A program made the position numbers and the translations under genes. A DNA stretch of 64,000 nt from Erodium maritimum (lineage: Eukaryota > Streptophyta > Magnoliopsida > Geraniales > Geraniaceae). Of the stretch, positions 33,728 to 58,403 are shown piece after piece. A model generated the notes under the pieces. The model did no database searches, was not told where the DNA came from, and saw only the letters and a program-made list of their open reading frames with translations. Positions within the stretch are counted from its first letter, which is position 1. Each line of letters opens with the position of its first letter. Location: assembly GCA_963921825.1 (NCBI GenBank), contig OY997588.1, forward strand, positions 65,988,617 to 66,052,616, written 5' to 3'.

Positions 33728-36700
33728 TTAAATTTTCCTGTTTTTCGCAGGTTTGACTGACGTTGACAAGAAGTGGTTATTACAGTCTACCCCCCTTAAA
33801 GGAATTTCGTCCGCGAAATTTAAAACAGACGTACCTCGGGAGTCGAACAGGCCGGGATACTTCGCGCGAACCTCGTCCTCGCGTTCCCACGTCGACTCAG
33901 CTCCGTGATGTTTCCACTGCACTCGGACCAAGCGGATAATCTTGCCTCCCCGCAGAATCTGCTGCCGTGTGTCCATGATCCGAATCGGCTGCTCCTCATA
34001 GGAGACATCATCAGCCACCTCGATATCAGTCCACTCGATGACGTGGGATGGGTCTGCGTTGTACTGCCGTAACTGGGATACGTGGAAGACGTTATGTACT
34101 CTCCCAAGCTGCGGTGGCAACGCCAGACGATAAGCCACGGCTCCCACTCTGTCTAAGATCTGGAACGGGCCTATGTACCTCGGAGCCAACTTTCCCCCGC
34201 TGCGCCTGAACCGCACCAGCCCCTTCCTCGGGCTCACCTTCAGGAACACGTGATCCCCGACTGCAAACTCAAGAGGTCGACGTCGCCTGTCTGCATAACT
34301 CTTCTGCCGGCTCTGCGCGGTCCTCAACTGATCGCGGATCAATGTGACCTTCTCCGTCGTCTCTCTGACAAGATCTGGCCCCAGCAGACTCTTGTCCCCC
34401 ACCTCTGCCCAGCATACTGGTGACCGACACGGCCTACCATACAACGCTTCGAACGGTGCCATCCCGATACTGGCCTGGAAGCTGTTGTTGTAGGCGAACT
34501 CGGCCAATGGTAGGTGGGTCTCCCAAGATCCCCTGAAATCCAGCACACATGCTCGCAGCATGTCCTCCAAGATCTGAATGGTACGCTCAGACTGACCGTC
34601 TGTCTGAGGATGATGTGCTGTGCTGAGTAGGATCTCTGTCCCCAGTGCCTTCTGCAGACTCGGCCAGAACCTGGACGTGAAGCGGGGATCCCTGTCAGAC
34701 ACTATCGACACCGGGACCCCGTGGAGGCGCACTATCTCCTGGATATACAGACTGCTCAACTTGTCGACCGGGTCTGTCATCCTCATAGCCAGAAAGTGGG
34801 CCGACTTGGTCAACCGGTCGACTACCACCCACACGGCGTCGTTTCCCTTGGGCGATCTCGGTAGTCCACACACGAAATCCATCGTAATGTGCTCCCACTT
34901 CCACTGAGCAATCGGTAGTGGCTGTAACAATCCCGCGGGACGCTGATGCTCTGCCTTCACCTGCTGACAGACAAGGCATCTCGACACAAACTCTGCGACT
35001 GCTCTCCTCATGCCGCGCCACCAGTAGTGCCTCCTGAGGTCACGGTACATCTTGGTGCCCCCCGGATGCACTACGAGACGCGAATGGTGTGCCTCTCGTA
35101 ACACGGCATCTCTACAGTTAACTGGTACGAACAGCCCCCCGCGGTACCGTAGTCCCCAATCAGTACTGTCCTGCCAGCCCACCACCTCGTCACCCCTGAC
35201 GACTCTCTCGCGGATCTCTGATGCTTCGACGTCCTCCCTCTGCGCCTCCAACACTTGGGCAAGTAGTGAGGGCTGAGCCACTAGGGAGCACATGGCAACA
35301 CCGCCAGTAACCTCCTCTAGCTCAAGCCCGAATGTGCTCAGCTCCCCCATCATGTCCCACTCTCGGACAGATATGCTGGCGAGGCTCGGAGCCGACTTCC
35401 TACTCAAGGCGTCGGCGACAACGTTCGCCTTGCCTGGGTGGTAGTGTAGCTCGAAGTCGTACTCCTCGAGTAGTTCCATCCATCGTCGCTGACGCATGTT
35501 CAGGTCTCGCTGGGAAAATATGTACTTGAGGCTCTTGTGATCCGAGAACACCTGAAACCCCTCGCCGTACAGATAATATCGCCAGCTCTTTAGCGCAAAC
35601 ACGACTGCTGCTAGCTCCAAGTCGTGGGTAGGATAGTTGCGCTCGTGTATCTTCAACTGCCTGGAGCCATAAGCCACAACTCTGCCCGACTGCATCAGCA
35701 CGCAACCCAGTCCCTCTCCGGATGCATCGCAGTAAACATCATAGCCAAACCCTCGTTCGGGCACCACTAACACTGGAGCTGTAGTCAGTCGAGTCTTCAA
35801 CTCCGCGAACGCATGCTCACAGTCATCTGTCCACACGAACCCAACACCCTTGCGCGTTAACAGAGTCATCGGTGCGGCTAGTCGTGCAAAATCCTGGACA
35901 AATCGCCTATAGTAGCCTGCCAATCCCAGAAAGCTGCGGATCTCGAAAACACTCGTGGGCCGTGCCCACTTCGAGACCGCGTCGATCTTCGACGGATCGA
36001 CCAGGATACCGTCACGGGATACGATGTGGCCGAGGAATCTCACCTCAGAGAGCCAGAACTCGCACTTCTCCCGGTTGGCATATAGCTGGTGCTCGCGCAG
36101 TACGGTCAGAACAACCCTCAGATGTGCCTCATGCGCCGCCTCGTTCTGCGAATATATTAGGATGTCGTCCACGAACACCACCACAAACTGATCCAGGTAC
36201 GGCCGGAAGATGCTGTTCATCAGGTCCATGAACGCTGCTGGCGCGTTCGTCAGTCCGAATGGCATCACCAGGAACTCGTAATGCCCATAGCGTGTCCGGA
36301 ATGCAGTCTTTGCGACGTCTCCCTCACGGACTCGCAACTGATAATAACCGGATCGCAGATCGATCTTCGAGAAGTGAGTCGCCCCTCTCAACTGGTCAAA
36401 CAAGTCATCGATCCTCGGCATCGGGTACCGGTTCTTCACCGTAACCCGGTTCAGCTTCCGGTAATCTATACACATCCGTAGCTCTCCACTCTTCTTCTTC
36501 ACGAAGAGTGCTGGTGCTCCCCACGGCGATGCACTCAGACGGATAAACCCCTTCTGCTGAAGCTCCTCCAGTTGACGCTTCAGCTCAGTCAACTCTGCTG
36601 GCGCAAACCTGTAAGGCGCCATCGATATCGCCGCCGTTCCCGGCACTAGGTCAATCCCGAACTCCACCTCACGAATCGGTGGCAGCCCGCTCAACTCCTC

Positions 36701-38356
36701 AGGAAAGACCTCGGGGAACTCGCATACCACTCTCGGTAACTCTCGGCTCTGCACAGCCGGTACTTCCTCCTCTGCGGACAACGCCGACAGGAGGACCCCA
36801 CTCTTACTCCCCAGCACGCACGTCACCTTCGTACCACCCACTGTCACTGTCACTCGTCGTCTGTAGCAATCGATGTTGGCTCGGTACCTCGACAACCAAT
36901 CCATACCCAAAATCACATCAAAGGTAGTCATCCCCAACACGAGAAGGTCACCAGGGCAAGGACAGTCTGCGACTCTAATCTCGCAGGCACGACATACTCT
37001 AGTCAACGATGCACCACCCCCAACTGGGGTGTCCAGGCATAGGGGTGGACTCAACGGCTCTAAGCTCAACCCCAACCTCTCAGCACAACCCGACGAAATA
37101 AAAGAGTGCGATGCCCCGGTATCAAACAAGAACAAAGCCCATAAATGATACAACAAACACGTACCCTGGATGGTCTCACGGCACGTGCTAGGTCCTGGGG
37201 CTCTGGAGTCGGTGACTGCATATACTCTCCCCTGCGAGGCCTGCTGCCTCTGACCCTGCGCACTGGCTGCTGGATACCCGTGACTCTGCTGCTGTCTCGG
37301 AATTGGTGCGCTCGTAGACGGCCGTGATGATCTCGGCTGCTGACCCTGTCGAGGGCGACCTCTGGGCGACTGTACTGTCCGCGACTGCTGCGGTCGCTGC
37401 ACTGATGTCTCCCCCAACTGCTCTCGGCACCATGCCATAGTGTGACCGGCCCGGCCGCATCGGTAACAGCTGATCTCATCAGCCCTTGACCCCGAGCCCT
37501 GGCCTGTCCGGCTAGTAGCTGGTACTGCCGCGGTTCCTCCCCTCGTCGGACAGTCTCGCTGTAAGTGGTCTGGCTGCCCGCAGTGATAGCATGACGGCCT
37601 CCTCTCTGAGGCGACTGGCCCTACTGATGCCACTGACCCCTGCTGTCTCGATCCACTCTGATGAGGCGGTGGTCGGAAGGATCCCGCGGTCCTCTGCCTC
37701 CGCGAGTCTCGTGAGTCTGACGGCCCTGCCCAACTGATCGGCCGAGGTCGGACCTCACGGCTCCTGACTGCATCCCTGGCGCCCTGCTCTACTGTAGCTG
37801 CGGTGTCCACGAGGTCGGTATACTTCCGTATCCTCAAGGCGAGAACCTGGTTCCGGATGCCCAGCCTCAGTCCGTCCTGGAACCGCAGGCAACGGTTCGC
37901 CTCGCTCGTCACCATCTCAGGCGCGAATCTGGCCAAGGCTGTGAACCTGGCTTCGTACTCTCCTACCGTCATCCCCCCTTGCTCCAGGTCTAAGAACTGC
38001 CGATGTCGCTCCAGCCGAGCCGACTCGGGGAAGTACTGTGCCATGAATACCTCCTGGAATACGCTGTAGTCGTATCCGACCGTGTCCTTCACCCGCCCCC
38101 ACCAGTGGTAGGCGCTGTCTCTCAGCTGATGGGCCGCGAAGGACACTCTCCGACGGCCATCCTCGACACCCGATGTGTCCAAGTCTCGTGTGACCTGCTC
38201 TATCCATCGCTCAGCCAGGTCGGGATTCGGCTCCCCGACAAAAACAGGTATCCCGAGCTTCAGGAAATCTAGTAGCGCTCGGGAGGTAAGATCCTCTGTC
38301 TGAGCGGCCCTCACCGGGACTGCGGCTGCCTCTGGTGCTGGCGAAGCCGACTCTCA
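33728..38356 (-). CDS. Chromovirus gag-pol polyprotein (main part)
   Basis: The open frame of 1528 codons from 38314 encodes the rest of gag (about residues 10-180), CCHC knuckles at 242-255 and 283-296, an aspartic protease with FDTGASHSF near 397-405, and reverse transcriptase with FVDD near 714-717. RNase H ([13 protein letters not shown]) follows, then integrase with its HHCC zinc region and DFVCGLP core. A chromodomain-like end ([20 protein letters not shown]) closes the protein. The true start is at 57730, beyond the copia insertion. Just upstream of 38314 there is an in-frame TGA at 38354-38356, which looks like a CGA-to-TGA change. The frame runs through the purine tract and 19 codons into the LTR before TAA at 33728. 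The coding part is otherwise intact. Confidence 0.95.
33785..33799 (-). other. Polypurine tract of the chromovirus
   Basis: On the element strand it reads TTAAGGGGGGTAGAC directly before the TGTAATAACC start of the 3' LTR. It primes plus-strand synthesis in this family. It also lies inside the open gag-pol frame. Confidence 0.85.
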
Positions 38357-38530
38357 GCTGGCGATGATCGCCACCAAACTCTGAACGGTCCTGGTAAGCT
38401 CATCCAGGGCAGTCATCACTGGAGGGTCCGCGACTGGCGGAACACTGGGGGTGCCTGCAGACGGCCCCGCATCACTCCTCCTGTCTTCTCCGACAGGAGT
38501 ACCCTGTGCCTCCGCATAGTCGGCGGGCTC

Positions 38531-40206
38531 TGTTGGGTCTCGATGGAGGGTATGAACACATACTTGCAGCGGAAATAACTCGAGACCATGTCATAGAACA
38601 CTACCAAATATTAGATACACAAGAGAATAAACAATATGGATGTTTCCTTACCAACTAGTTCAAGAAAAGGAAGAGAACACCAAAGAAACGATGATCGGCT
38701 TGAGTCTCCAAGACGCCTACGTATCCAAATGGAATCAAAGCCACGTAGTTCTTCTTTAGATGACTCAAGAACACAACAAGAGGGGGGAAAAGTGCCAAAC
38801 TCGAAATTGTAGTGTGAGAGGGAGAGAAGTTGTGTTTCTATTCTTGTCTTATGATTTGTTGTAGGAAAAAGATGACTTAAACCATCAACAACCATCAAGG
38901 ACAAGTAAGGTGTGAAGCATGGTGTGAAGTAAGACAAGCATGGTGCTAAGTATGGCAAGACAAGATGGGTTAGGTGGTGAATCACCAACACCTTAATCCT
39001 TGTCTTGCTTACTTAGTACTAATTAATCAAGACTTGATTAATTAGTTCCATGGGCCTTGGTTGCATGGGCCTTTCATGGGCCTCTTGGAACATGGCCCAT
39101 GGCCATTCCCAACGAGGTCCCGTGACGTGCTCATCGCCTCCAAGCCTTCCATACCGGAAATGTCCAACATTATCCGACGCGATCAATCCCAAGACTCCAA
39201 GCCTTGTCTTGATCCGTAATGTCCTATTCACTTACGGGCACATGACCCAAAACCCAGTTTTGGTCATGTCCCGAGACAACTCTCTTTTGGCCATTCTCCA
39301 TAAATGTGTCAATGAGTTTCATCCTTCGGTGTGACCCTTAGGTCTATGCATGTCGATAGATCAACGTAAAATCCCATTTTACTTGATCCTATATAAGTGG
39401 CAACTAACGAGACTTTAGTATTGCCTGACACTACATAGCGAATCGAACCAATCGATTCTAACCTTTCCGTCCTCCCTGTCATTATCCTTTTATCTCCGAT
39501 ATCCTGATTGAGATAAGGCATAGAGCCGTCATCCTTATTATTCTCAATCACTGTTCCTTGATATGTGAGATGACTGAATATATGATACCTAGTATCATGT
39601 GCATGGCCATGCTATTCTTTCAGTCACTCTCGATCAAGCGGCCGAGAACCGATATCTTTCCCATACCTCAGTATGAGGGATAAATCCCTTAGCCGTCTTT
39701 CGTGTCACTCATGCAACCCGTCCCCAAGCCAATCCTGGCCGTTATGGAAGCCCTGTTACGGACAACGTTAGGCTCAGGTCAAACTTAGTTGTTGACTGCA
39801 TAGTGATCACAAAGACTCCTTGGTCTAAGGATACATGACAAGCTACGACACTGAATATGTTAATGACTCAATCTATGGCACATATTCAGGGCGGGTCGTC
39901 CAATATCATGTCCCACATGATATCTATGATCAGACTCCGGAATCCCATTCCAATGACTAACAGAACGTAAGCCATGAAGAGCCATCTTTCATACTAGTCG
40001 CTTCTAGTGAAGCTTTATTGACTAGGGACCCATCGAGTGTGATCCATCTCGATCTATGGTTCTATTCGCATGGTGGGCATAGATCAGAAATCACATCGAT
40101 ATATTACTCCAACACATAAGTAATAGAAAGCCGCTTTAATCTTATTGCTAATGATGATATATACATTTGGACATTTATGATTGAACTACGGGCACTAAGA
40201 CTAACA
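38531..40206 (-). repeat. 3' LTR of Copia-A (1676 bp)
   Basis: It runs TGTTAGTC...CCCAACA on the element strand. No difference from 55945-57620 was seen by eye. The polypurine tract AAGTGGGAGAT (40207-40217) adjoins it. Confidence 0.95.
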
Positions 40207-40220
40207 ATCTCCCACTTGCC

Positions 40221-40898
40221 CTAGTTCCAATCTAAACTCCAATCTATTCCCATTGACCTTACATGCCTCTCATGTTTAGGCAACGATAGTGCCTTAGTCA
40301 ACGGGTCGGCTATGTTATCATCAGTTGCAATATAGGTGATCTTCACATCGCCTCGGTTCAGTATCTCTCTGATGAGGTGATATCGCCGCAGTACATGTTT
40401 GGATTTGTTATGCGATCTGGGCTCTTTAGCTTGCGCAATAGCCCCTGTGTTGTCGCAAAATAGGTTCACCGGGCTGGATGGGTTTTTGATTACACCCAAC
40501 CCTGCCGTGAACTTCCTAATCCACACAGCCTCCTTGGCCGCCTCTGCAGCCGCTATGTACTCGGCCTCTGTCGTGGAGTCAGCGACGGTGTCTTGCTTCA
40601 CGCTCTTCCAGCTGAAAGCTCCGCCATTCAGCGTGAACACATATCCTGACTGACTTCTAAAGTCATCTGGATCTGTCTGGAAACTAGCGTCTACATATCC
40701 ATTAACAACTAGTTCAGAATCATCTTTTCCCCCGTACACTAGAAACGCGTCCTTAGTTCTTCTCAAATATTTGAGAATCGCTTTGACCGCTATCCAGTGT
40801 TCCTCACCAGGGTTAGACTGATGTCTGCTGGTACAACTCAAGGCATATGAGACATCCGGTCTCGTGCATATCATGGAATACATGATCGATCCTACCGC
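40221..40898 (-). CDS. Copia-A RT end and RNase H (part 3)
   Basis: The frame resumes after the solo LTR as VGSIMYSMICTRPDVSYAL and covers RNase H (NGYVDASFQTDPDDFRSQSG, then STTEAEYIAAAEAAKEAVW). It ends MGIDWSLDWN with the stop at 40221-40223, immediately before the purine tract. It is 225 codons plus stop. Confidence 0.95.
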   Translation of the reverse strand, partial: AVGSIMYSMICTRPDVSYALSCTSRHQSNPGEEHWIAVKAILKYLRRTKDAFLVYGGKDDSELVVNGYVDASFQTDPDDFRSQSGYVFTLNGGAFSWKSVKQDTVADSTTEAEYIAAAEAAKEAVWIRKFTAGLGVIKNPSSPVNLFCDNTGAIAQAKEPRSHNKSKHVLRRYHLIREILNRGDVKITYIATDDNIADPLTKALSLPKHERHVRSMGIDWSLDWN

Positions 40899-40903
40899 CG
40901 AAG

Positions 40904-42590
40904 TGTTGGGTCTCGAGGTAGGGTTGGAGATGAACCAACTCGCAGCGGAAAATAAATGAAAACCAAGAGACAATTAGAACCATGAAACAACTAACAAAGA
41001 ATGGATTAACAAGAGAAAAATTCAGCACTAGTTCTTACCAAAACAAGAACACCGGGTAACGAATGATTGGCTTGAGTCTCCAAGACGCCTACGTATCCAC
41101 ATGGGAATCAAAGCCACGTAGTTCTTCTCTTTGAGGACTCAAGAACACAAAAATGGAGGAGGAAACTAGCCAAACCCGAAATGGCCATGGAAGAGGGAGA
41201 GAAAATGTGTTTCCTATTCTTGTCTTGTGTTTGTTATGTTGAAAAAAGATGACTTAAACATAACAAAACCCATACTTGTCCAACTAAAGGCATGGGACAA
41301 GTATGGTGTCAAGTAAGGTGTAAATAGGACAAGTATGGCAAGACAAGATTGGGTTAGGTGGTGAATCACCAACACCTTAATCTTTGTCTTGCTTACTTAG
41401 TACTAATTAATCAAGACTTGATTAATTAGTTCCATGGGCCTTGGTTGCATGGGCCTTTCATGGGCCTCTTGGAACATGGCCCGTGGCCATTTCTAACGAG
41501 GTCCCGTGATTCGCTCATCGCCTCCATGCCTTCCATACCGGAAATGTCCAACATTATCCGACGCGATCAATCCCAAGACTCCAAGCCTTGTCTCGATCCG
41601 TAAAGTCCTATTCACTTACGGGCACATGACCCAAAACCCAGTTTTGGTCATGTCCCGAGACAACTCCCTTTTGGCCATTCTCCATAAATGTGTCAATGAG
41701 TTTCATCCTCCGGTGTGACCCTTAGGTTTATGCATGTCAATAGATCAACGTAAAATCCCATTTTACTTGATCCTATTTAAGTGGCAACTAACGAGACTTT
41801 AGTATTGCCTGACACTACATAACGAATCGACCCTGTCGATTCTAACCTTTCCGTCGTCCCTGTCATTATCCTTTTATCTCCGATATCCTGATTGAGATAA
41901 GGCATAGAGCCGTCATCCTTATTATTCTCAATCACCGTTCCTTGATATGTGAGATGACTGAAGATATGATACCCAGTATCATGTGCATGGCCATGCTATT
42001 CTTCCAGTCACTCTCGATCAAGTGGCCGAGAACCGATATCTTTCCCATACCTTAGTATGAGGGATAAATCCCTTAGCCGTCTTTCGTGTCACTCATGTAG
42101 CCCGTCCCCAAGCCAATCCTGGCCGTTATGGAAGCCCTGTTACGGACAACGTTAGGCTCAGGTCAAACTCAGTTGTTGACTACATAGCGATCACAAAGAC
42201 TCCTTGGTCTAAGGATACATGACAAGCTACAACACTGAATATGTTCATGACTTAATCTATGGCACATATTCAGGGCGGGTCGTCCAATATCATGCCCCAC
42301 ATGATATCTATGATCAGACTCCGGAATCCCATTCCAATGACTAACAGAACGTAAGCCATAAAGAGCCATCTTTCATACTAGTCGCTTCTAGTGAAACTTT
42401 GTTGACTAGGGACCCATCGAGTGTGATCTATCTCGATCTATGGTTCTATTCGCATGGTGGGCATAGATCAGAGCACACATCGATATATTACTCCAACACA
42501 TAAGTAATATAAAGCCGCTTTAATTTTATTGCTAACGATGATATATACATTTGGACATTTAGGATTGAACTACGGGCACTAAGACTAACA
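40904..42590 (-). mobile_element. Solo LTR of a Copia-B-type element inside Copia-A
   Basis: A 1687-bp LTR flanked by perfect CGAAG (40899-40903 and 42591-42595), inserted in the RT coding region of Copia-A. It resembles the Copia-B LTRs but differs from them at scattered positions, so it comes from a separate insertion. Its internal part was removed by LTR recombination after it landed in Copia-A. Confidence 0.95.
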
Positions 42591-42928
42591 CGAAGCGTAT
42601 GGGATTCGCATCATTCTTTTCAGCTCATCAGGTGTCTTAGGACACTGAGTCTTGCTGAGATGAACGCCATGACGTGCGGGTAAGAGTCCTTTCTTGGAAT
42701 CAAGCATTGAGAACCTACTCAATACCTTGTTCACATAGGTGCTTTGACTTAAACCCAAGACCCTCTTGGTGCGATCTCTATATATCTTAATCCCTAAGAT
42801 ATAAGCAGCATCGCCTAAGTCCTTCATTGAGAAACACTTCCCTAACCAAGCTTTAGTCTCGTGCAAGGTTGGGATGTCGTTTCCAATGAGTAGTATGTCA
42901 TCGACATACAACACCAGAAAGGTAATCA
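42591..42928 (-). CDS. Copia-A reverse transcriptase, middle part
   Basis: It continues the frame from 51382 and contains the catalytic box in ITFLVLYVDDILLIGND, then KAWLGKCFSMKDLGDAAYIL, ending KRMMRIPYAS at the solo-LTR insertion. It is 111 codons once the TSD copy is removed. Confidence 0.9.
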
Positions 42929-44616
42929 TGTTGGGTCTCGAGGTAGGGTTGGAGATGAACCAACTCGCAGCGGAAAATCAATGAAAACCAAGAGACAATT
43001 AGAACCATGAAACAACTAACAAAGAATGGATTAACAAGAGAAAAATTCAGCACTAGTTCTTACCAAAACAAGAACACCGGTTAACGAATGATTGGCTTGA
43101 GTCTCCAAGACGCCTACGTATCCACATGGGAATCAAAGCCACGTAGTTCTTCTCTTTGAGGACTCAAGAACACAAACATGGAGGTGGAAACTAGCCAAAC
43201 CCGAAATGGCCATGGAAGAGGGAGAGAAAATGTGTTTCCTATTCTTGTCTTGTCTTTGTTATGTTGAAAAAAGATGACTTAAACATAACAAAACCCATAC
43301 TTGTCCAACTAAAGGCATGGGACAAGTATGGTGTCAAGTAAGGTGTAAATAGGACAAAGTATGGCAAGACAAGATTGGGTTAGGTGGTGAATCACCAATG
43401 CCTTAATCCTTGTCTTGCTTACTTAGTACTAATTAATCAAGACTTGATTAATTAGTTCCATGGGCCTTGGTTGCATGGGCCTTTCATGGGCCTCTTGGAA
43501 CATGGCACGTGGCCATTTCCAACGAGGTCCCGTGATTCGCTCATCGCCTCCATGCCTTCCATACCGGAAATGTCCAACATTATCCGATGCGATCAATCCC
43601 AAGACTCCAAGCCTTGTCTCGATCCGTAAAGTCCTATTCACTTACGGGCACATGATCCAAAACCCAGTTTTGGTCATGTCCCGAGACAACTCCCTTTTGG
43701 CCATTCTCCATAAATGTGTCAATGAGTTTCATCCTCCGGTGTTACCCTTAGGTTTATGCATGTCAATAGATCAACGTAAAATCCCATTTTACTTGATCCT
43801 ATTTAAGTGGCAACTAACGAGACTTTAGTATTGCCTGACACTACATAACGAATCGACCCTATCGATTCTAACCTTTCCGTCGTCCCTGTCATTACCCTTT
43901 TATCTCCGATATCCTGATTGAGATAAGGCATAGAGTCGTCATCCTTATTATTCTCAATCACCGTTCCTTGATATGTGAGATGACTGAAGATATGATACCC
44001 AGTATCATGTGCATGGCCATGCTATTCTTCCAGTCACTCTCGATCAAGTGGCCGAGAACCGATATCTTTCCCATACCTTAGTATGAGGGATAAATCCCTT
44101 AGCCGTCTTTCGTGTCACTCATGTAGCCCGTCCCCAAGCCAATCCTGGCCGTTATGGAAGCCCTGTTACGGACAACGTTAGGCTCAGGTCAAACTCAGTT
44201 GTTGACTACATAGCGATCACAAAGACTCCTTGGTCTAAGGATACATGACAAGCTACAACACTGAATATGTTCATGACTTAATCTATGTCACATATTCAGG
44301 GCGGGTCGTCCAATATCATGTCCCACATGATATCTATGATCAGACTCCGGAATCCCATTCCAATGACTAACAGAACGTAAGCCATAAAGAGCCATCTTTC
44401 ATACTAGTCGCTTCTAGTGAAGCTTTGTTGACTAGGGACCCATCGAGTGTGATCTATCTCGATCTATGGTTCTATTCGCATGGTGGGCATAGATCAGAGC
44501 ACACATCGATATATTACTCCAACACATAAGTAATATAAAGCCGCTTTAATTTTATTGCTAACGATGATATATACATTTGGACATTTATGATTGAGCTACG
44601 GGCACTAAGACTAACA
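42929..44616 (-). repeat. 3' LTR of Copia-B (1688 bp)
   Basis: Matches 49694-51381 except for about two substitutions. The purine tract follows at 44617. Confidence 0.95.
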
Positions 44617-44634
44617 ATCTCCCACTTGCCCTAG

Positions 44635-47600
44635 TTCCAATCTAAACTCCAATATGTCCCCATCGACTTTACATGTCTAACATGTTCAGGCAGTGACACT
44701 GCCTTAGTCAAAGGGGTGGCTATGTTATCATCTGTTGCAATATCGGTTATCTTCACTTCACCTCAGTTCAGTATTTATCTGATGAGGTGGATATGCCGCA
44801 GTACATGTTTGGATTTGTTATACGATCTAGGCTTTTAGCTTGCGTAATGGCCCTTGTGTTGTCGCAAGATGGATTCATCGGGCTGGATGGGTTTTTAATT
44901 ACACCCAACCCTGCCATGAATTTCCAAATCCACATAGCCTCCTTAGCTGCCTCTGCAGCATCCATGTACTTGGCCTCTATCGTAGATTCGGCAATGATAT
45001 CTTGCTTTACGCTCTCCCAGCTAAAGCTCTGCCATTCAGCGTAAACACATATCCTGATTGACTTCTAAAGTCATCTGGATTTGTCTTGGAAAACTAGCGT
45101 CTACTCATCCTTCGACGACTAGTTCAGCATCATCTTTCCCCCGGGTTAGAATGATGTCTACTGGTACAACATAAGGCTTACGAGACGTCTGGTGTCATAC
45201 ATGTCATGGCATATATGATCGATCCTGCCCCCAGGCGCATAGGATTCTCATCATCCTTTTCAGCTCATCAGGTGTCTTAGGACACTGAGTCTTGCTGAGA
45301 TGAATGCCATGACTAGTGGGTAAGAGTCCTTTCTTTGAATCGAGCATTAAGAACCTACTCAATGCCTTTTTCACATAGGTTCCCTGACTTAAATCCAAGA
45401 CTCTCTTGGTGCGATCTCTACATATCTTAATCCTTAATATATAAGAAGCATCGCCTAAGTCCTTTATTGAAAAACACTTCCTCAACCAAGCTTTAGTCTC
45501 GTGCAAGGTTGGGATGTCGTTTTCAATGAGAACCAGAAAGGTAATCTTGCTCCCACTAGCCTTCTTATAAACGCAAGATTCATCCTCGTTCTTGATTAAG
45601 CCAAGTGCAATTACAGCTTCATCAAAACGAAGGATCCAACTCCGAGAAGTTCGTTTCAATCCATATATGGATTTCAACAACTTATAAATCTTTCCTTTAT
45701 TCTTCGGATCGTCAAAACCTTTGGGCCGAGACATACAAATGTACTCAGTCAAATTTCCATTTAGGAAATCGGTTTTGACATCCACTTTCCATATCTCGTA
45801 ATTATGATACGCAGTTATGTCAAGAAGAATTTGGATCGATTTTGACCATAGCCACTAGGGAGAAGGTTTCCTCATAGTCAATCCATGCCTATAACCTTTC
45901 GCCACCAGTTGAGCTTTGTAGTTCAGAGGGTTGCCGTCCATGTCCATCTTCACCTTGAAGATCCATTTGCATCCGATGGTCATTACCCCATTGATGGGAT
46001 CAACCGGTTCCCAGACTCGGTTGTCCGACATGGATTGCATTTCCTCCCTCATGGCTCCCAGCCATAACTCGGAGTTGGGCCCATCCACGACTTCCTGAAA
46101 GGTGGCTGGATCATCGTGATCCACCATGACTTCATTGTCACCTCCGGATACCATATCTTGGAGGTGGAAGATTGATCCTTTCAAATCGCCTTGGACCTTC
46201 CGGAATTGTAACAGGAATTGGTTCTTACTCTACGACAATCTCTGGCTCCTTTCTACTGGGTTGCCAATTGGTTTAGACGGATCTGTACCATCCTGAATTT
46301 CTTCGAGATGCACAGTCCTCCCAATGACGTCTTTGGAAACAAAACTCCTTTTCCATAAAGACCCCGCCCCATGCGACGAACACCATGTTCTCACTGGGAT
46401 TGTAGAAATAGTATCCTCTTGTTGCTTTGGGATACCACACGAAGGTGCATATCTCAGATCTTGATTCGAGCTTAGTTGAAACCAAATGTTTTACATAAGC
46501 CTCATAACCACAAATCTTTAGGAAGGACAAAGCGGGCATCATCCCGTACCATTTTTAAAATGGTGTCCCTTCCACACCATTCGTCGAAGCCCGATTCACT
46601 ATGAATGCGGTCGTCTCTAGAGCAAAACCCCTAAAAGAGATTGGGAGATCAGTCCAACTAATCATGGAACAGACCATTGTCTAACAATGTCCGATTTCTC
46701 CGTTTGGCTACACCTTTCAACCACAGTGACCTAGGAGGAGTCCATTCCAAAAGGATCCCATTCTCTTTTAGATGATCTAATAACTCTGTGGTCAAGTATT
46801 TTCCACCTCGATCCAATCGAAGTGCCTTAATACCTTTGTCAAGCTGGTTTTCTACTATAGTCTTAAACTCTTTGAATTTATCAAAAGCTTCAGACTTATG
46901 TCTCACCGAATAGACATAACCATATTTACTGTAATCATCAGTAAATGTGATAAAGTAGCTAAAACCCCTCCTGGCAAGTGAACTTATTGGTCTACACACA
47001 TTCGAGTGTATCAGCCCCAATAATTCACCCGCCCTTTCATCGAGATCGATAAAGGGCACTTTAGTCATTTTGCCCATCAAACAAACCTTGCACCTATCGA
47101 TCGAATGGAATTCGAATGAACCTGAAAGCCCGCACTTCTGAAGTGCTGATAGGCGCTTCTTGTTTATGCGACCCAAATGACAGTACCATAACAGAGTTAG
47201 GTTTAAATCGTTGGATTTAGACCTCTTGGTATTAACGGAATATATAGAACTTGAGGAATTGTTACCCATATCTAATATGTACAATCCTCCAACCATGTCA
47301 GTACTGGTATAAAACATATCATTGCATAGAACATTGAAAACTCCATTTCCAATATTAACATTATATCCTTCCTTGTCAAACACGAATACAGATATAATAT
47401 TCCTACTAAAAGTAGGTATGCAATATACATTATACAATACTAAGACAAGGCCTCTTTGCAAAGCAAGACTCATGGATCCTACAGCAGTTGCCACAACTCT
47501 GAGGTCCATTTCGTGCTTTCCAAATCTCTCCTACTTTCAGCCACCATATATTAGTGCATGTGTGAGATTCAGTCATGGTATCTAATACCCATGAATCTTT

Positions 47601-47800
47601 GGAAGTAGAGAGATGTAGCTCTATAGAGTTAATACCGAATGAAGGCACGGTCCCACCGCCCTTCCTTAGATCATCCAGGTTTCCTGATGAAGGCGCAGTC
47701 CTACTGCCCTTCTTCAGATCATCCAGGCTATTTGATGAAGGCGCAGTCCCACTGCCCTTCTTCAGATCAGCCGTGAACTTCCTGTAATCCAGGTTCCAAT
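44635..47800 (-). pseudogene. Copia-B pol remnant lacking the RT active site
   Basis: Pieces matching Copia-A protease (47648-47430), integrase (47509-46658), linker (46542-46273), RT (46184-45855 and 45785-45204) and RNase H (44965-44768) appear in order but in different frames with stops. A GATCATCCAG...CTGCCCTTC unit is tandemly repeated near 47645-47770. In RT the sequence reads TFLVLIENDIPTLHE where Copia-A reads TFLVLYVDDILLIGNDIPT, so 21 nt including YVDD are gone near 45530. The element cannot make its own functional RT. Confidence 0.85.
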
Positions 47801-47904
47801 GACCAGGCTGTTGGCAGTAGAAGCAGACATTCTCAGGTGTCTCATCTTTCCTGCCAAGTGCGCATGGGCCCAGCCCTTGCCACTTCCAATTCCCTTGTTG
47901 ACCA

Positions 47905-48138
47905 TCAGAATATCCTTGGATCCCAGATCCCTGAGATATTCTTCTCAGCAGTTAATGACACTTCATGTAACTCTAATATGGTCTTAGAGACAGCCTTGTC
48001 AAGGACATATTCTTTGCGTTCAGACTTGAGGACTATCCTCAAAATTCTGTACCAGTCCAAATAGTTTGTCCCATTTAGCTTGACCCTGTCAAGAATGGTT
48101 TTTAATGACAAACTATTAATGTTCGCTGAATTTGCCAT
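47905..48138 (-). pseudogene. Copia-B gag remnant with internal deletion
   Basis: It starts MANSANINSLSLKTILDRVK, follows Copia-A gag to about residue 48 (EYVLDKAV), then jumps to the region equal to Copia-A residues about 189-205 (KTILELHEVSLTAEKN) and stops soon after. Roughly 140 codons of gag are missing. A zinc-knuckle trace (VCFYCQQPGHW) remains downstream near 47830-47800, out of frame. Confidence 0.85.
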
Positions 48139-49693
48139 TTGATCTACAACAGATAAAATTCAATCAGTAAACTGAATAAATTTTATGAAGATCAAGCTTA
48201 AACACCAACAATCAATTCTAAACCTTTAGAATCTGAAACCAAGATCCTTGATTCACTCGATTAAGCTGAACTAATGCTCACCACTTAATCGAGCTATGTA
48301 GGTAGGACTCCATCCAATCACATCCAATGTGACTCTTGGCTAGGGTATGTACTTATGTACACGACTTACCCTATCTGTTACCCTAGCTCAACCTCAGGCT
48401 GAGAATCGTAGTCGGGTCCACCAATTTTCAACTATGGCTCGTCACTATGTAGGTGCTCCGCTAATGCGCACGACACCCACATATGTCGTCCAAACCTACT
48501 ACCCCGCTTTCCCATGGATGCTCCGCTAATGCGCACGACACCCATAGGACGGGGAGGTAGTAAGGTGTTGATAATTGGGAGGTATCGGACATGACCCGTT
48601 TTTACTTGTCCGGTTGTGTTTAAAACTTTGACACATCCTAGATGCGATGAGCACATCAACTACATTCCAAATGAAATGATGCCTCAAATTACATCCAATG
48701 TAATTCTTCCTTCGAACCCGTCAACTACATCCAATGTAATGACGATTCTAAGGGCTCACACACAAGGATTAAAATTCCAATTTTATCTTTGCATGTGAGG
48801 TGATATGCTCGGTAAATAAAGTTAAGCATGCAATTCTAAAACACAGAATTAATCATGCATAATTTAAACCAAGCATAAAGCGATAAATATGCACATAATA
48901 GCCCCCTAAACTAACTCCCACTAGCTTCTTGAGCTCCACCGACTCCAAGACGATGCCAACACCCGAAAAGCCACCAAATGACCTTTTCGCCCTTTCTTCA
49001 TCTTGAGTAAAATATTACAATTTAATACACGACTCGCAGGTCGGGAATAAATAAATATTACAAACAAGTGGTTCGACGACCACACCTTGAAAGAATAATT
49101 ACACGCTAACACTAACGGCTCGCAGGCCGTGAAAAGCGATAAATAATTAAATTGAGCTCGGGGCTATTATGTACACCATGCCAACATCACATCACACATC
49201 GTGTTATCAAACAAGCATGTTATCAAACATCATGTGATTTTCCGTTTTTAATTAATAGCCAAGTTTCGAAATTTTTTGATGCTCGGTTTATCGAAACCGT
49301 TCAAAAATGAAACTTTTGAACATTTGATCTTCGAGTTCATCATGACGGTTCCAAACTCGTCATAACTAACAAAACGGTTTAGCCTTGGCATATCAACCAT
49401 CCAATGGTCATGCTTGGCCTAGCTCCGTCCAACGGAGCCCCGTTCGGTCCCGGTTTCGGCTCCCCGAGAGTCCCGCTCCCGAGACCCAAAAAATCAAAAT
49501 TTTTTCAAAATTTCCAGATTTGAAATAATTTTCAAAAATTCATTTTACATGCATTAAATCCATGAACAAGAATTTAAAACATGTTATCAAACAATTTAGC
49601 AAAACATCATGCCAAAAAACGAAACTTTCAAGCAAAACCAAAACTTTGAACACCGTCTTGTGAATCCCGAAGGTAGCACGGCTCTGATACCAC

Positions 49694-51381
49694 TGTTGGG
49701 TCTCGAGGTAGGGTTGGAGATGAACCAACTCGCAGCGGAAAATCAATGAAAACCAAGAGACAATTAGAACCATGAAACAACTAACAAAGAATGGATTAAC
49801 AAGAGAAAAATTCAGCACTAGTTCTTACCAAAACAAGAACACCGGTTAACGAATGATTGGCTTGAGTCTCCAAGACGCCTACGTATCCACATGGGAATCA
49901 AAGCCACGTAGTTCTTCTCTTTGAGGACTCAAGAACACAAACATGGAGGTGGAAACTAGCCAAACCCGAAATGGCCATGGAAGAGGGAGAGAAAATGTGT
50001 TTCCTATTCTTGTCTTGTCTTTGTTATGTTGAAAAAAGATGACTTAAACATAACAAAACCCATACTTGTCCAACTAAAGGCATGGGACAAGTATGGTGTC
50101 AAGTAAGGTGTAAATAGGACAAAGTATGGCAAGACAAGATTGGGTTAGGTGGTGAATCACCAATGCCTTAATCCTTGTCTTGCTTACTTAGTACTAATTA
50201 ATCAAGACTTGATTAATTAGTTCCATGGGCCTTGGTTGCATGGGCCTTTCATGGGCCTCTTGGAACATGGCCCGTGGCCATTTCCAACGAGGTCCCGTGA
50301 TTCGCTCATCGCCTCCATGCCTTCCATACCGGAAATGTCCAACATTATCCGATGCGATCAATCCCAAGACTCCAAGCCTTGTCTCGATCCGTAAAGTCCT
50401 ATTCACTTACGGGCACATGATCCAAAACCCAGTTTTGGTCATGTCCCGAGACAACTCCCTTTTGGCCATTCTCCATAAATGTGTCAATGAGTTTCATCCT
50501 CCGGTGTTACCCTTAGGTTTATGCATGTCAATAGATCAACGTAAAATCCCATTTTACTTGATCCTATTTAAGTGGCAACTAACGAGACTTTAGTATTGCC
50601 TGACACTACATAACGAATCGACCCTATCGATTCTAACCTTTCCGTCGTCCCTGTCATTACCCTTTTATCTCCGATATCCTGATTGAGATAAGGCATAGAG
50701 TCGTCATCCTTATTATTCTCAATCACCGTTCCTTGATATGTGAGATGACTGAAGATATGATACCCAGTATCATGTGCATGGCCATGCTATTCTTCCAGTC
50801 ACTCTCGATCAAGTGGCCGAGAACCGATATCTTTCCCATACCTTAGTATGAGGGATAAATCCCTTAGCCGTCTTTCGTGTCACTCATGTAGCCCGTCCCC
50901 AAGCCAATCCTGGCCGTTATGGAAGCCCTGTTACGGACAACGTTAGGCTCAGGTCAAACTCAGTTGTTGACTACATAGCGATCACAAAGACTCCTTGGTC
51001 TAAGGATACATGACAAGCTACAACACTGAATATGTTCATGACTTAATCTATGGCACATATTCAGGGCGGGTCGTCCAATATCATGTCCCACATGATATCT
51101 ATGATCAGACTCCGGAATCCCATTCCAATGACTAACAGAACGTAAGCCATAAAGAGCCATCTTTCATACTAGTCGCTTCTAGTGAAGCTTTGTTGACTAG
51201 GGACCCATCGAGTGTGATCTATCTCGATCTATGGTTCTATTCGCATGGTGGGCATAGATCAGAGCACACATCGATATATTACTCCAACACATAAGTAATA
51301 TAAAGCCGCTTTAATTTTATTGCTAACGATGATATATACATTTGGACATTTATGATTGAGCTACGGGCACTAAGACTAACA
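49694..51381 (-). repeat. 5' LTR of Copia-B (1688 bp)
   Basis: Same length as its partner. The PBS TGGTATCAGAGC (element strand) lies at 49681-49692, next to it. Confidence 0.95.
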
Positions 51382-54300
51382 AATCATACCCCCATTTGCC
51401 TTCTTGTAAACGCAAGGTTCATCTTCATTCTTGATAAAGCCAAATCCAATTACAGCTTCATCAAAACGAAGGTTCCAACTCCGAGAAGCTTGTTTCAATC
51501 CATAAATGGATTTCAACAACTTACAAATCTTTCCCTTATTCTTCGGATCGACAAAACCTTCGGGTTGAGACATATAAACGTCCTCCGACAAATTTCCGTT
51601 TAGGAAAGCGGTTTTGACATCCATTTGCCATATCTCGTAATCGTGATATGCAGCTATGGCAAGAAGAATTCGGATAGATTTGACCATAGCCACTGGGGAA
51701 AAGGTTTCCTCATAGTCAATCCCTTGGATCTGCCTATAACCTTTCGCCACTAGTCGGGCTTTGTAGGTCTGAGGGTTGCCTTCCATGTCCATCTTCACCT
51801 TGAAGATCCATTTGCATCCGATGGTTCTTACACCACCGATGGGATCAACCAGTTCCCAGACTTGGTTGTCCGACATGGATTGCATTTCCTCCCTCATGGC
51901 TCCCAGCCATAACTCAGAGTCGGGTCCGTCCACAGCTTCCTGAAATGTAGCTGGATCATCGTGATCCACCACAAGCTCACCGTCACCTCCAGACACAAAG
52001 TAACCATATCTCGGAGGTGGACGACTAACCCTTTCAGATCGCCTTGGACCTTCTGGAATTGTTGCAGGAACTGGTCCTTGCTCTACGACCATCTCAGGCT
52101 CTTCTACAGGGTTGTCCAGTGGATCAGTTGGATCTGTACCACCCTGAATTTCTTCTAGATGTACAACCCTCCCACTGACGTCTTTGGAAATAAACTCCCT
52201 TTCCATAAAGACCCCACCCCGAGCGACGAACACCGTGTTCTCGCTGGGTTTGTAGAAGTAGTACCCCATTGTTTCTTTGGGATACCCAACGAAGGTGCAT
52301 TTATCAGATCTTGGTTCGAGCTTAGTCGGAACTAAACGTTTCACATAAGCCTCGCAACCCCAAATCTTTAGGAAGGACAAAACGGGCTTTCTCCCGCGCC
52401 ATTTCTCAAATGGTGTCCCTTCCACAGCCTTCGTCGGAGCCCGATTCAAAATGAATGCGGCCGTCTCCAGAGCATAACCCCAGAAAGAGATTGGGAGATC
52501 AGTCCCACTAATCATGGACCGGACCATATCCAATAAAGTCCGATTTCTCCGTTCGGACACACCATTCAATTGTGGTGTTCCGGGAGGAGTCCATTCTGAA
52601 AGGATCCCACTTTCTGCTAGATGATATAAAAACTCTGTGGTCAAGTATTCTCCACCTCGATCTGATCGAAGTGCTTTAATACTTTTCCCGAGCTGGTTTT
52701 CTACTTCCGTCTTAAACTCTTTGAATTTATCAAAAGCTTCAGACTTATGTCTCATCAAATAGACATAACCATATCTACTGAAGTCGTCAGTAAATGTGAT
52801 AAAGTAGCTAAAACCCCTCCTGGCAAGTGTGCTCATTGGTCCACACACATCCGAGTGTATTAGCCCCAATAAGTCACCCGCCCTTTCACCGCGACCGATG
52901 AAGGGCGCTTTAGTCAGTTTTCCCATCAAACAAGATTCGCATCTATCAATCGAATGAAATTCGAATAGACTAAGAAGTCCACACTTGTGAAGTGTTGATA
53001 TGCGTTTCTCGTTTATGTGGCCTAAACGACAATGCCATAAAAGAGTTTGGTCTAAATCATTGGACTTAGACCTCTTGGTATTTACATTATATATAGAGCT
53101 TGAGGCATTGTTATCCATATCCAATATGTACAATCCTCCAACCATTTTGGCGCTAGCATAAAATATATCATTGCATAAAATATTGAAAATCCCATTTCCA
53201 ACATCAAAATTGTATCCTTCCTTGTCCAACAAAGAAATAGATACAATATTCCTACTGAAAGTAGGTACACAATATACATTGTTCAAAACAAAAACTAGCC
53301 CACTTGGCAAAAGAAGACTTATGGATCCTACAGCAGTCGCCACAACTCTAGTCTTGTTGCCCACTCTGAGGTCCACCTCGTCCTTCTTCAAGCTTCTCCT
53401 ACCTTCCAGCCACTGCACATTAGTACAAATGTGAGATTCAGCCCCGGTATCCAATACCCATGAATCTTTGGAAGTAGTGAGATTTAGCTCTATAAAGAAA
53501 ATACCTGATGAAGGCACAGTCCCACCGCCCTTCTTCAGATCATCCAGAAACTTCCTGCAATCTTTCTTCCAGTGACCAGGCTGTTGACAGTAGAAGCAGA
53601 CATTCTCGACATCCTTCCCCTTCCTTGAGGACTCCCCAGTCCTAGGAGGGTTAGGACGCTTCGGATGCCTCATCTTTCCTGCCAAGTGCATAGGGGCCTT
53701 GCCCTTACCACTAACAGTTCCCTTATTCTTGAAACTGTTTCCCTGTCTGACCATCAGAACATCCTTGGATCCCTGATCCTTGACGTTCTTTTCAGCAGTT
53801 ACCAACATTCCATGCAACTCTGAAATGGTCTTGTCCATATCGTGCATATGATAGTTCATGACGAACGTAGCATATGAACGAGGAAGGGAACGCAGAACCA
53901 CATCCGCTGCCATCTCGTTCTCTATCTTAAGACCCAGTCGATTAAGATGTTCGAGATGCCCCTTCATCTTTAGGACATGAGGACCCACGGAGACTCCTGC
54001 TGACATTTTGCAGGAGAGAAGTTCATTAAGGACATTGTATCTCACGATACGTGCCCTTTCCTTGAACATACCCTTTATGATCCCCATCATAGTATATGGG
54101 TCATCAGAGTACTCCATGAACTGGTCTTGGAGATCAGACTCCATGCAGCCCAGCATAATACATGCCACATCTATAGAATCGCTAAGGTGCTTTTGGTATG
54201 CATCCTTAACGGCCCTAATGGCATTATTAGCTGGCTCCTCAGGGATAGCCTGGTCTAGGACATATTCTTTGCGCTCGAATTTGAGGACTATCCTCAAGTT

Positions 54301-54396
54301 TCTGTCCCAGTCCAAGTAGTTTGTCCCACTTAGCTTGATCCTATCAAGAATGGTTTTTAGTGACAAACTACTATTGTTCGCTGAAGTACTTGCCAT
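51382..54396 (-). CDS. Copia-A gag-protease-integrase-RT start (part 1)
   Basis: It opens with MASTSANNSSLSLKTILDRI and encodes 1005 codons up to the Copia-B insertion. Gag has a CCHC knuckle at C267, C270, H275 and C280. The protease has DTGAES at 316-321. Integrase has its zinc site at H455, H460, C486 and C489 and its catalytic triad at D516, D579 and E615 (35 residues between the last two). RT begins near residue 865 (GCKWIFKVKMDMEGNPQTYK). No stop or frameshift was seen in this part. It continues at 42923 after the nested element. Confidence 0.95.
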
Positions 54397-55931
54397 TTGA
54401 TCTACACGACAAACAAAATATAATCAGTAAACTGAATAAATTTTATGAAGATCAAGTTCAAACACCAACCAATTGATTCTAAACCTTTAGAACCTAAAAC
54501 CAAGATCCTTGATTCACCCGATTAAGCTGAACTAATGCTCACTACTTAATCGAGCTATGTAGGTAGGACTCCATCCAATCACATCCAATGTGACTCTTGG
54601 CTAGGGTATGTACTCATGTACACGGCTTACCCTATCTAATACCCTAGCTCAACCTCAGGCTGAGAATCGTAGTCGGGTCCACCAATTTTCAACTATGGCC
54701 CGTCACTATGTGGGTGCTCCGCTAATGCGCACGACACCTACACATGTCGTCCAAACCTACTACCCCGCTTTCCCATGGATGCTCCGCTAATGCGCACGAC
54801 ACCCATAGGACGGGGAGGTAGTAAGGTGTTGATAATTGGGAGGTATCGGACATGACCCGTTTTTACTTGTCCGGTTGTGTTTTAAACTTTTGGCACATCC
54901 TAGATGCGATGAGCACATCAACTACATTCCAAATGTAATGATGCCTCCAATTACATCCAATGTAATTCTTCCTTCGAACCCGTCAACTACATCCAATGTA
55001 ATGACGATTCTAAGGGCTCACAGACAATGATTAAAACCAATTTTATCTTTGCATGTGAGGTGATATGCTCGGTAAATTAAGTTAAGCATGCAATTCTAAA
55101 ACACATAGAAAAGATCATGCAAAAACTAAACCAAGCATAAAGCGTTAAATATGTACATAATAGCCCACTAAACTAACTCCCACTAGCTTCTTGAGCTCCA
55201 CCGACTCCAAGCCGATGTCAAAACCCGAGAAGCCACCAAATGACCTTTTCGCCCTTTCTTCGTCTTGAGTAAAATATTACAATTTAATACACGACTCGCA
55301 GGTCGGGAATTAATAAATATTACAAATAAGTGGTACGACGACCACACCTCGAAAAAATAATTACACGCTAACTCTAACGGCTCGCAGGCCGTGAAAAGCG
55401 ATAAATAATTAAATCAAACTCGGGGCTATTATGTACACCATGCCAACATCACATCACACATCGTGTTATCAAACAAGCATGTTATCAAACATCATGTGAT
55501 TTTCCGGTTTTAATTAATTGCCAAGTTTCGAAAATTTTTGATACTCGGTTTATCGAAACCGTTCAAAATTGAAACTTTTGAACATTTGATTTTTGAGTTC
55601 ATCAAGACGGTTCCAAACTCGTCATGACTAACAAAACGGTTTAGCTCGGCATATTGACCATCCAATGGTCATGCTTGGCCTAGCTCCGTCCAACGGAGCC
55701 CCGTTCGGTCCCGGTTTCGGCTCCCCGAGAGTCCCGCTCCCGAGACCCGAAAAATCAAATTTTTTTCAAAAATTCCAGATTTGATAAACTTTTCAAAAAT
55801 TCATTTTTCATGCATTAAACCCATAAACAAGAATTTAAAACATGTTATCAAACAATTTAGCAAATTAACATGCAAAACCGAAACTAGCAAGCAAAACCGA
55901 AAGTTCTCTTGTGAATCCCGAAGGTAGCACG
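54397..55931 (-). other. Long untranslated leader of Copia-A
   Basis: About 1.5 kb between PBS and gag without coding. It carries the twice-used phrase GCTCCGCTAATGCGCACGAC (near 54718 and 54781) and several ACATCCAATGTAAT phrases. A similar leader in Copia-B covers 48139-49680, which shows the two are close relatives. Confidence 0.75.
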
Positions 55932-55943
55932 GCTCTGATACCA
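55932..55943 (-). other. Primer-binding site of Copia-A (tRNA-iMet)
   Basis: TGGTATCAGAGC on the element strand, one base inside the 5' LTR. Confidence 0.9.
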
Positions 55944-55944
55944 C

Positions 55945-57620
55945 TGTTGGGTCTCGATGGAGGGTATGAACACATACTTGCAGCGGAAATAACTCGAGAC
56001 CATGTCATAGAACACTACCAAATATTAGATACACAAGAGAATAAACAATATGGATGTTTCCTTACCAACTAGTTCAAGAAAAGGAAGAGAACACCAAAGA
56101 AACGATGATCGGCTTGAGTCTCCAAGACGCCTACGTATCCAAATGGAATCAAAGCCACGTAGTTCTTCTTTAGATGACTCAAGAACACAACAAGAGGGGG
56201 GAAAAGTGCCAAACTCGAAATTGTAGTGTGAGAGGGAGAGAAGTTGTGTTTCTATTCTTGTCTTATGATTTGTTGTAGGAAAAAGATGACTTAAACCATC
56301 AACAACCATCAAGGACAAGTAAGGTGTGAAGCATGGTGTGAAGTAAGACAAGCATGGTGCTAAGTATGGCAAGACAAGATGGGTTAGGTGGTGAATCACC
56401 AACACCTTAATCCTTGTCTTGCTTACTTAGTACTAATTAATCAAGACTTGATTAATTAGTTCCATGGGCCTTGGTTGCATGGGCCTTTCATGGGCCTCTT
56501 GGAACATGGCCCATGGCCATTCCCAACGAGGTCCCGTGACGTGCTCATCGCCTCCAAGCCTTCCATACCGGAAATGTCCAACATTATCCGACGCGATCAA
56601 TCCCAAGACTCCAAGCCTTGTCTTGATCCGTAATGTCCTATTCACTTACGGGCACATGACCCAAAACCCAGTTTTGGTCATGTCCCGAGACAACTCTCTT
56701 TTGGCCATTCTCCATAAATGTGTCAATGAGTTTCATCCTTCGGTGTGACCCTTAGGTCTATGCATGTCGATAGATCAACGTAAAATCCCATTTTACTTGA
56801 TCCTATATAAGTGGCAACTAACGAGACTTTAGTATTGCCTGACACTACATAGCGAATCGAACCAATCGATTCTAACCTTTCCGTCCTCCCTGTCATTATC
56901 CTTTTATCTCCGATATCCTGATTGAGATAAGGCATAGAGCCGTCATCCTTATTATTCTCAATCACTGTTCCTTGATATGTGAGATGACTGAATATATGAT
57001 ACCTAGTATCATGTGCATGGCCATGCTATTCTTTCAGTCACTCTCGATCAAGCGGCCGAGAACCGATATCTTTCCCATACCTCAGTATGAGGGATAAATC
57101 CCTTAGCCGTCTTTCGTGTCACTCATGCAACCCGTCCCCAAGCCAATCCTGGCCGTTATGGAAGCCCTGTTACGGACAACGTTAGGCTCAGGTCAAACTT
57201 AGTTGTTGACTGCATAGTGATCACAAAGACTCCTTGGTCTAAGGATACATGACAAGCTACGACACTGAATATGTTAATGACTCAATCTATGGCACATATT
57301 CAGGGCGGGTCGTCCAATATCATGTCCCACATGATATCTATGATCAGACTCCGGAATCCCATTCCAATGACTAACAGAACGTAAGCCATGAAGAGCCATC
57401 TTTCATACTAGTCGCTTCTAGTGAAGCTTTATTGACTAGGGACCCATCGAGTGTGATCCATCTCGATCTATGGTTCTATTCGCATGGTGGGCATAGATCA
57501 GAAATCACATCGATATATTACTCCAACACATAAGTAATAGAAAGCCGCTTTAATCTTATTGCTAATGATGATATATACATTTGGACATTTATGATTGAAC
57601 TACGGGCACTAAGACTAACA
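55945..57620 (-). repeat. 5' LTR of Copia-A (1676 bp)
   Basis: It has the same length and apparently the same sequence as the 3' LTR. About 70% of it is similar to the Copia-B and solo LTRs, but its 3' end on the element strand differs (TATGAACACATACTTGCAG versus TTGGAGATGAACCAACTCG), which marks a separate subfamily. Confidence 0.95.
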
Positions 57621-57730
57621 GGCTCGACGGTCGGCACCCTCCCTGGTGCCCCTGCTGACCGTCCCCGCCGGCCTCGCGTGGGTGCCTGGCCCCGTGTTCC
57701 TGATGGTCGTCCCCGCTTACCGCGAGCCAT
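57621..57730 (-). CDS. N-terminal gag fragment of the chromovirus
   Basis: ATG at 57730 opens a very basic start, MARGKRGRPSGTRGQAPTRG, and runs about 36 codons to the point where Copia-A inserted (TSD GGCTC, 57621-57625). The same frame resumes at about 38525 on the other side, reading ADYAEAQGTPVGEDRR, and continues to the TGA at 38354. The gag start is therefore cut off from the rest by 19 kb. The stretch 57731-58388 is the untranslated leader. Confidence 0.85.
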
Positions 57731-58388: not shown

Positions 58389-58400
58389 GCTCTGATACCA
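58389..58400 (-). other. Primer-binding site of the chromovirus (tRNA-iMet)
   Basis: On the element strand it reads TGGTATCAGAGC, complementary to the 3' end of initiator tRNA-Met. It lies three bases inside the 5' LTR. Confidence 0.9.
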
Positions 58401-58403
58401 AGC

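Follow-up and report, generated by a model that had tools for sequence, protein, structure and literature searches.

BARE2 of barley is described as a Copia subfamily that cannot make Gag and lives as a parasite of BARE1; it is more abundant than BARE1, its RNA is packaged in BARE1 particles, and an 8-bp deletion at the start codon abolishes its Gag, while its pol is suggested to be translated (PMC3735527). In rice, Tos17 is reported as an active Copia element without gag that is presumed to use the Gag of another element (PMC3977881), and Dasheng, Spip and Squiq, which belong to the large retrotransposon derivatives (LARDs), are described as paired with RIRE2, RIRE3 and RIRE8 by the similarity of their long terminal repeats (LTRs) (PMC1940013). 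Here we describe Copia-B, a retrotransposon of the plant Erodium maritimum, found in a stretch of 64,000 nucleotides (C1:65988617-66052616, called the window below) of the 763-Mb host genome. Copia-B very probably represents a large non-autonomous Ty1/copia family that is copied in trans, the likeliest helper being the lineage of Copia-A, the element in which it is inserted.

Further cases bear on how such families persist. Whole families of pol-less Athila elements in Arabidopsis are reported to have been propagated in trans over long periods, and many non-autonomous Athila elements to keep their frames under purifying selection (PMC2410132); new insertions of defective LTR elements have also been observed in Arabidopsis, according to another report (PMC8704663). 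In non-autonomous grass pararetroviruses the regulatory sequence is described as homogenised with that of the partner, which is attributed to recombination (PMC5491270), and pairwise recombination of Onsen transcripts that are presumed to share particles, with recombinant LTRs among the products, is described in Arabidopsis (PMC5668417). No description of the Copia-B family was found in a literature search, a result of low weight because the search was not made by host species.

Lesions of Copia-B

Copia-B has the features of a Ty1/copia element, namely LTR ends of the form TG...CA, a primer-binding site (PBS; which we take to be of the tRNA-Met type), a polypurine tract (PPT) and a 5-bp target-site duplication (TSD) (Table 1). 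The copia order, with gag, and integrase before the reverse transcriptase (RT) domain RVT_2, is found in the pieces of Copia-A, and Copia-B retains remnants of rve and then RVT_2. In comparison with the gag of Copia-A, about 0.4 kb has gone from Copia-B, including Retrotran_gag_2, which a Pfam search did not detect in it; an N-terminal stretch and later gag remnants are retained. A 21-bp, in-frame deletion in RT takes out exactly YVDDILL, about 77 bp are deleted from ribonuclease H (RNase H), and many frame breaks are spread across the element. Eleven frame-shifting indels are common to all nine aligned B units (the window copy, six fetched single elements and two tandem units), and the window copy showed no frame break of its own among these nine; the alignment affects where the breaks are placed, and the spacer between gag and protease, into which two of the larger ones fall, aligns poorly. 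An initial annotation, made from the letters of the window, had described part of this damage (loss of much of gag, loss of the YVDD box, many frame breaks) in an element with LTRs about 99.9% identical, lying within a young host element, and each of these points was borne out, the LTRs differing at 2 of 1688 sites and those of Copia-A being identical.

A LARD has a large non-coding interior unrelated to gag-pol, whereas the interior of Copia-B is a degraded gag-pol, about 85% identical to Copia-A in the integrase-RT segment. Nor is Copia-B, at 8453 bp, a terminal-repeat retrotransposon in miniature (TRIM), which is a very short element. Its damage also goes beyond the condition of BARE2, in which only Gag is lost and pol is translatable, for here the RT box is deleted and the frames are broken. 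In the lengths of its LTR and leader it is presumably similar to BARE.

Copies of Copia-B in the genome

The genome was searched with a probe for the R-U5 end (repeat and unique 5' region) of the LTR, and the best 40 of 122 candidates were scored; from the LTR pairs among these 40, six single elements and one tandem element with three LTRs were fetched, together with 12 single LTRs. Each of seven copies, the window copy and the six single elements, has a perfect 5-bp TSD that differs from those of the other six, and the gag and YVDD deletions are both present in every one; in the two tandem units the YVDD deletion is accompanied by a deletion over gag that is larger, at 730 bp. A second sample was drawn from the first 15 of 100 listed matches to the YVDD-deletion junction (exact, all within 45 Mb of the start of C1), of which ten were taken and five in tandem groups left out. 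A perfect TSD was present at the predicted tips in six of the ten, the other four being without resolved tips; these six were fetched whole, and each has both deletions and 0-2 LTR substitutions. Altogether, both deletions are present in every one of the 13 two-LTR copies read. Their 5-bp TSDs, 13 in number and all different, lie precisely at the tips of the LTRs, and the 52-60-bp flanks of the 13 copies showed no similarity to one another. The same inactivating lesions at differing target sites are what a family mobilised in trans presents. The initial annotation had proposed a search for such copies as the proof that the defective form transposes, and named as refutation their absence together with LTR gene conversion; the copies exist, and its claim that the damage is older than the last move is upheld by lesions common to 13 of 13.

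The junctions themselves were counted by a pattern search of the whole genome, with up to three mismatches allowed and reversed patterns as controls. The YVDD-deletion junction gave 2412 + 2423 = 4,835 matches (controls 0 and 0) and the gag-deletion junction 2290 + 2329 = 4,619 (controls 0 and 1), against 298 + 254 = 552 for the intact A-type YVDD site and 252 + 225 = 477 for the intact A-type gag boundary (controls 0 for both), so that defective sites stand to intact ones at about 9:1 at both junctions. If every junction belonged to a full-length element, B would occupy some 40 Mb, or close to 5% of the genome, which is an upper bound, as many may be fragments. The LTR-PBS junction (2589 + 2596 matches, control 0) backs the order of magnitude only, since the three mismatches allowed admit A-type junctions, which have two differences.

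Could Copia-B have been intact at insertion and decayed later, its LTRs being kept alike by gene conversion? Nothing was found for this beyond its general possibility, and it is refuted by the shared lesions at sites with different TSDs. Moreover, the window copy is free of private frame breaks among the nine aligned units, about three post-insertion substitutions are expected in its interior, and it is nested in Copia-A, whose LTRs are identical. The copies L009 (on C1) and L011 (on C4) have different TSDs and interiors of about 5,085 bp that differ by no substitution and one 1-bp indel; neither this match of interiors at unrelated sites nor the nesting in Copia-A can be accounted for by LTR gene conversion, and we give later decay practically no credence. 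As a separate observation, the right LTR of L009 shows four transitions relative to its own left LTR and to both LTRs of L011, despite the substitution-free interiors, and is possibly a recombinant LTR or a product of gene conversion.

Some copies do lie in tandem, LTR-sharing arrays (C1:14735618-14749196, C1:42503050-42528942 and, for L015/L016, C4:13173710-13187485), a circumstance that would suit an origin by segmental or tandem DNA duplication instead of retrotransposition. For the 13 copies read, however, duplication is refuted by TSDs that are all different, placed at the LTR tips, and by unrelated flanks, and its probability is negligible. The tandem B units are mostly about 6.77 kb apart (6.04 kb in the C4 array), and A-type pairs were found 7264 bp apart. 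Among the 12 single LTRs, six (L018, L020, L021, L023, L025 and L026) are solo LTRs with perfect 5-bp TSDs.

The two LTR differences of the window copy correspond to an age of about 45-85 thousand years at presumed rates of 0.7-1.3e-8, and the identical LTRs of Copia-A give a ceiling compatible with this. The seven copies read first have 2, 4, 10, 0, 9, 8 and 16 LTR substitutions, the six read later 1, 0, 0, 1, 2 and 1; pooled, the 13 copies have 54 substitutions in 21,944 sites (0.25%), with a median of 2 per copy. Their interiors differ by a mean of 2.0% (0-3.7%). With so few LTR substitutions and this interior divergence, several B lineages must have moved repeatedly, long after the shared damage.

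Selection on the coding sequence

Constraint was judged from codon-position counts alone. Among eight B units, variable sites at positions 1/2/3 of the A-frame codons number 119/96/105 (p=0.29), and with up to 14 units 135/103/114 (p=0.11), whereas the fixed differences between A and B number 123/106/188 (p=1e-6). In four A copies, one of them broken, the counts are 12/17/27 (p=0.04). The B coding sequence is thus without sign of purifying selection while the family is still moving, and because codon-position bias is absent among the B copies, B seems to have done without proteins of its own. That B nevertheless moves with proteins that it encodes, the lesions being overcome by recoding or splicing for instance, might be entertained in view of integrase and RT remnants that are still recognisable, but both deletions stand in each of the 13 two-LTR copies and the codon positions show no bias, and we consider this highly improbable.

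Copia-A as candidate helper

The gag-pol of the window Copia-A is split in three by insertions and is open in each piece (1014, 110 and 226 residues). The pieces contain gag, zinc knuckle, integrase and RT domains in a Pfam search, and the RNase H piece had no match there. A homologue search with the gag piece retained 77 proteins of 722 candidates, of which the few with a named organism are plants; none of the 77 supplied a useful family name. Five A-type loci were fetched, three being whole elements with their own TSDs and two not whole A elements in the stretch fetched (one, L055, has A-type coding sequence with no A LTR within that stretch). Two young copies, L058 and L059, each have a stop-free frame of 1350 residues, three LTR substitutions and their own TSDs; the third whole element is broken and has 13 LTR substitutions. 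The genome thus contains a partner with matching cis signals, PBS and PPT being identical, whose autonomy is predicted from its frames.

To look for a gag-bearing progenitor of B type, a pattern combining B alleles with an intact gag was run, and it gave two matches, each with two mismatches. Both candidates were rejected as older relatives, since their integrase-RT segments are closer to A than to B (84.5% against 78.1% for L060, 78.2% against 76.7% for L061); no gag-bearing B progenitor was found with this pattern, which a more divergent one would escape. At the end of L060 stands a B-type LTR tip, which probably belongs to a nested B insertion. L057, considered as an element with intact YVDD and a B-type LTR, was rejected in turn, being an older A-like element whose leader harbours a nested B copy (from about 5847). 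With this one, insertions of the B family within A-type elements number three, two in the window Copia-A and one in the leader of L057, perhaps through clustering in the same chromatin.

Because of the intact young A copies, the identical PBS and PPT and the apparent recombination with B described below, the Copia-A lineage appears the likeliest helper. Supply in trans by a Copia-A-like relative, as the initial annotation had put it, gains support from these young copies and from the lack of a B progenitor in our search; that the helper was Copia-A itself or its kin is what we infer from sequence.

Mosaic similarity of Copia-A and Copia-B

The same annotation had A and B share PBS, leader and LTR core, which holds for the PBS (identical), the leader (94.8%) and U3 (the unique 3' region), and fails at the R-U5 end. 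In the window, most of the LTR is 96-98% identical between A and B, and the R-U5 end is 65-78% identical; the break is sharp, near sense position 1260, and was taken as the U3/R border. In four A and 13 B copies, mean divergence within A, within B and between A and B is 0.8%, 1.4% and 4.1% for U3, 1.2%, 1.9% and 5.8% for the leader, 0.8%, 2.1% and 13.9% for integrase-RT, and 1.1%, 2.1% and 24.9% for R-U5. Since the values within families are alike across segments, differences in rate alone do not account for the sixfold spread between A and B. This points to an exchange of U3 and leader between the two lineages, most simply by template switching between RNAs that would have been packaged together, a mechanism reported for Onsen (PMC5668417) and argued for the non-autonomous pararetroviruses (PMC5491270). 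The source of the B R-U5 (49694-50120 in the window) was not found in this analysis.

A further reading, possible but offered tentatively, is that template switching in shared particles keeps the U3 and leader of the parasite matched to its helper while the dead coding sequence drifts, that is, a concerted evolution of cis signals. If so, the sharp step from U3 to R-U5 would mark an intermolecular first strand transfer.

Several points weigh against trans-copying by the A lineage as set out here. Thirteen of several thousand copies were read whole, and their ages do not come from a random sample, six copies having been chosen for having a TSD and another six taken from LTR pairs within the top 40 LTR matches. 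A and B contrast modestly in codon positions (p=0.03), and one of the four A copies used is the broken one. The similarity of U3 and leader could come from DNA gene conversion or from selection on signals, and an R-U5 about 25% diverged from that of A is unpredicted by a simple story of shared signals. At least two older gag-bearing relatives (L060 and L061) exist, 15-22% diverged from the Copia-A coding sequence, and the helper could be a Copia more distant than A. The family would then be non-autonomous all the same, with Gag and RT from that other Copia family; the divergent R-U5 and these relatives favour this, as does the mobile defective ATCOPIA57, which is described as belonging to a family without an autonomous member (PMC8704663). 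The identity of PBS and PPT with those of A, the likeness of U3 (96%) and leader (94%), the intact young A copies and a U3 and leader that look recombined with the A lineage all argue the other way, and we hold a distant helper to be unlikely, though deserving of attention.

For trans-copying by the A lineage, events probably ran as follows. A common B ancestor would have lost the capsid part of gag, the catalytic box of RT and its reading frames, while its transcripts retained LTR, PBS, leader and PPT. The proteins of another element, likeliest from the co-resident Copia-A lineage, would have packaged and copied these transcripts, and many insertions would have followed; recombination between the A and B lineages may have taken place by way of co-packaging.

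Structure of the window

The window carries four nested LTR insertions. Copia-A lies within an outer Gypsy-type element, and inside Copia-A are two B-family insertions, a solo LTR and the full Copia-B (Table 1). The Gypsy-type element has an open frame of 1528 residues at 33728-38314 (minus strand), the end of which presumably resembles a chromodomain. The boundary between U3 and R-U5 in Copia-B was inferred from the A/B similarity break.

Table 1. Coordinates in the window of the nested elements and of the parts of Copia-B
Feature	Position	Strand	Remarks
Outer Gypsy-type element	30832..61334	-	LTRs 99.1% identical, TSD CCACT
Copia-A, host of both B insertions	38531..57620	-	LTRs identical (1676 bp), TSD GGCTC
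B-family solo LTR within Copia-A	40904..42590	-	TSD CGAAG
TSD AATCA, left	42924..42928	.	flanks Copia-B
Copia-B, whole non-autonomous element (8453 bp)	42929..51381	-	LTR pair, TSD AATCA
Copia-B 3' LTR	42929..44616	-	differs from 5' LTR at 2/1688 (99.88% identical)
Copia-B PPT	44617..44631	-	sequence identical in Copia-A
RNase H region	44633..45230	-	77-bp deletion, frame breaks
RT remnant (RVT_2) without YVDDILL	45207..45854	-	Pfam search
21-bp YVDDILL deletion junction	45517..45541	-	4,835 genome matches, <=3 mismatches
Integrase remnant (gag_pre-integrs, rve)	46661..47530	-	Pfam search
~0.4-kb gag deletion junction	47971..47995	-	4,619 genome matches, <=3 mismatches
Copia-B leader including PBS	48135..49693	-	94.8% identical to Copia-A leader
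Copia-B PBS	49680..49692	-	sequence identical in Copia-A
Copia-B 5' LTR (sense orientation)	49694..51381	-	U3 ~50121-51381, R-U5 ~49694-50120
TSD AATCA, right	51382..51386	.	flanks Copia-B

Comparison with known systems

What sets Copia-B apart is that capsid and RT catalytic box are both lost, whereas a full-length body is kept and thousands of sites have been reached. Because both families are young and have signals in common, helper dependence, parasite load and recombination between helper and parasite are directly testable here. The case also shows that the recent mobility of an LTR family can hardly be judged from open frames.

Athila is of the Gypsy type, and differs from Copia-B in the selection on its frames, as B has no codon-position bias. 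The grass pararetroviruses, which are not LTR retrotransposons, resemble it in that a defective form has non-coding regulatory sequence in common with its partner, and in Onsen the recombination takes place within one family, no defective parasite family being described in the account cited above (PMC5668417). Like the rice LARDs, Copia-B is a large non-autonomous LTR element with a putatively autonomous counterpart similar in LTR sequence, but it retains a recognisable, broken gag-pol where the LARD interior is non-coding. From Tos17 it differs in having no working pol and in its thousands of junction matches. Like BARE2, it lacks Gag and is more abundant than a potentially autonomous sister; unlike BARE2, it has lost capsid, RT catalytic box and intact frames together, and it is known here from sequence, whereas BARE2 has been shown in particles. 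In short, gag-less Copia parasites (BARE2, Tos17) and the rice LARD pairs are already known, and Copia-B joins them as a non-autonomous LTR parasite of the same kind as BARE2.

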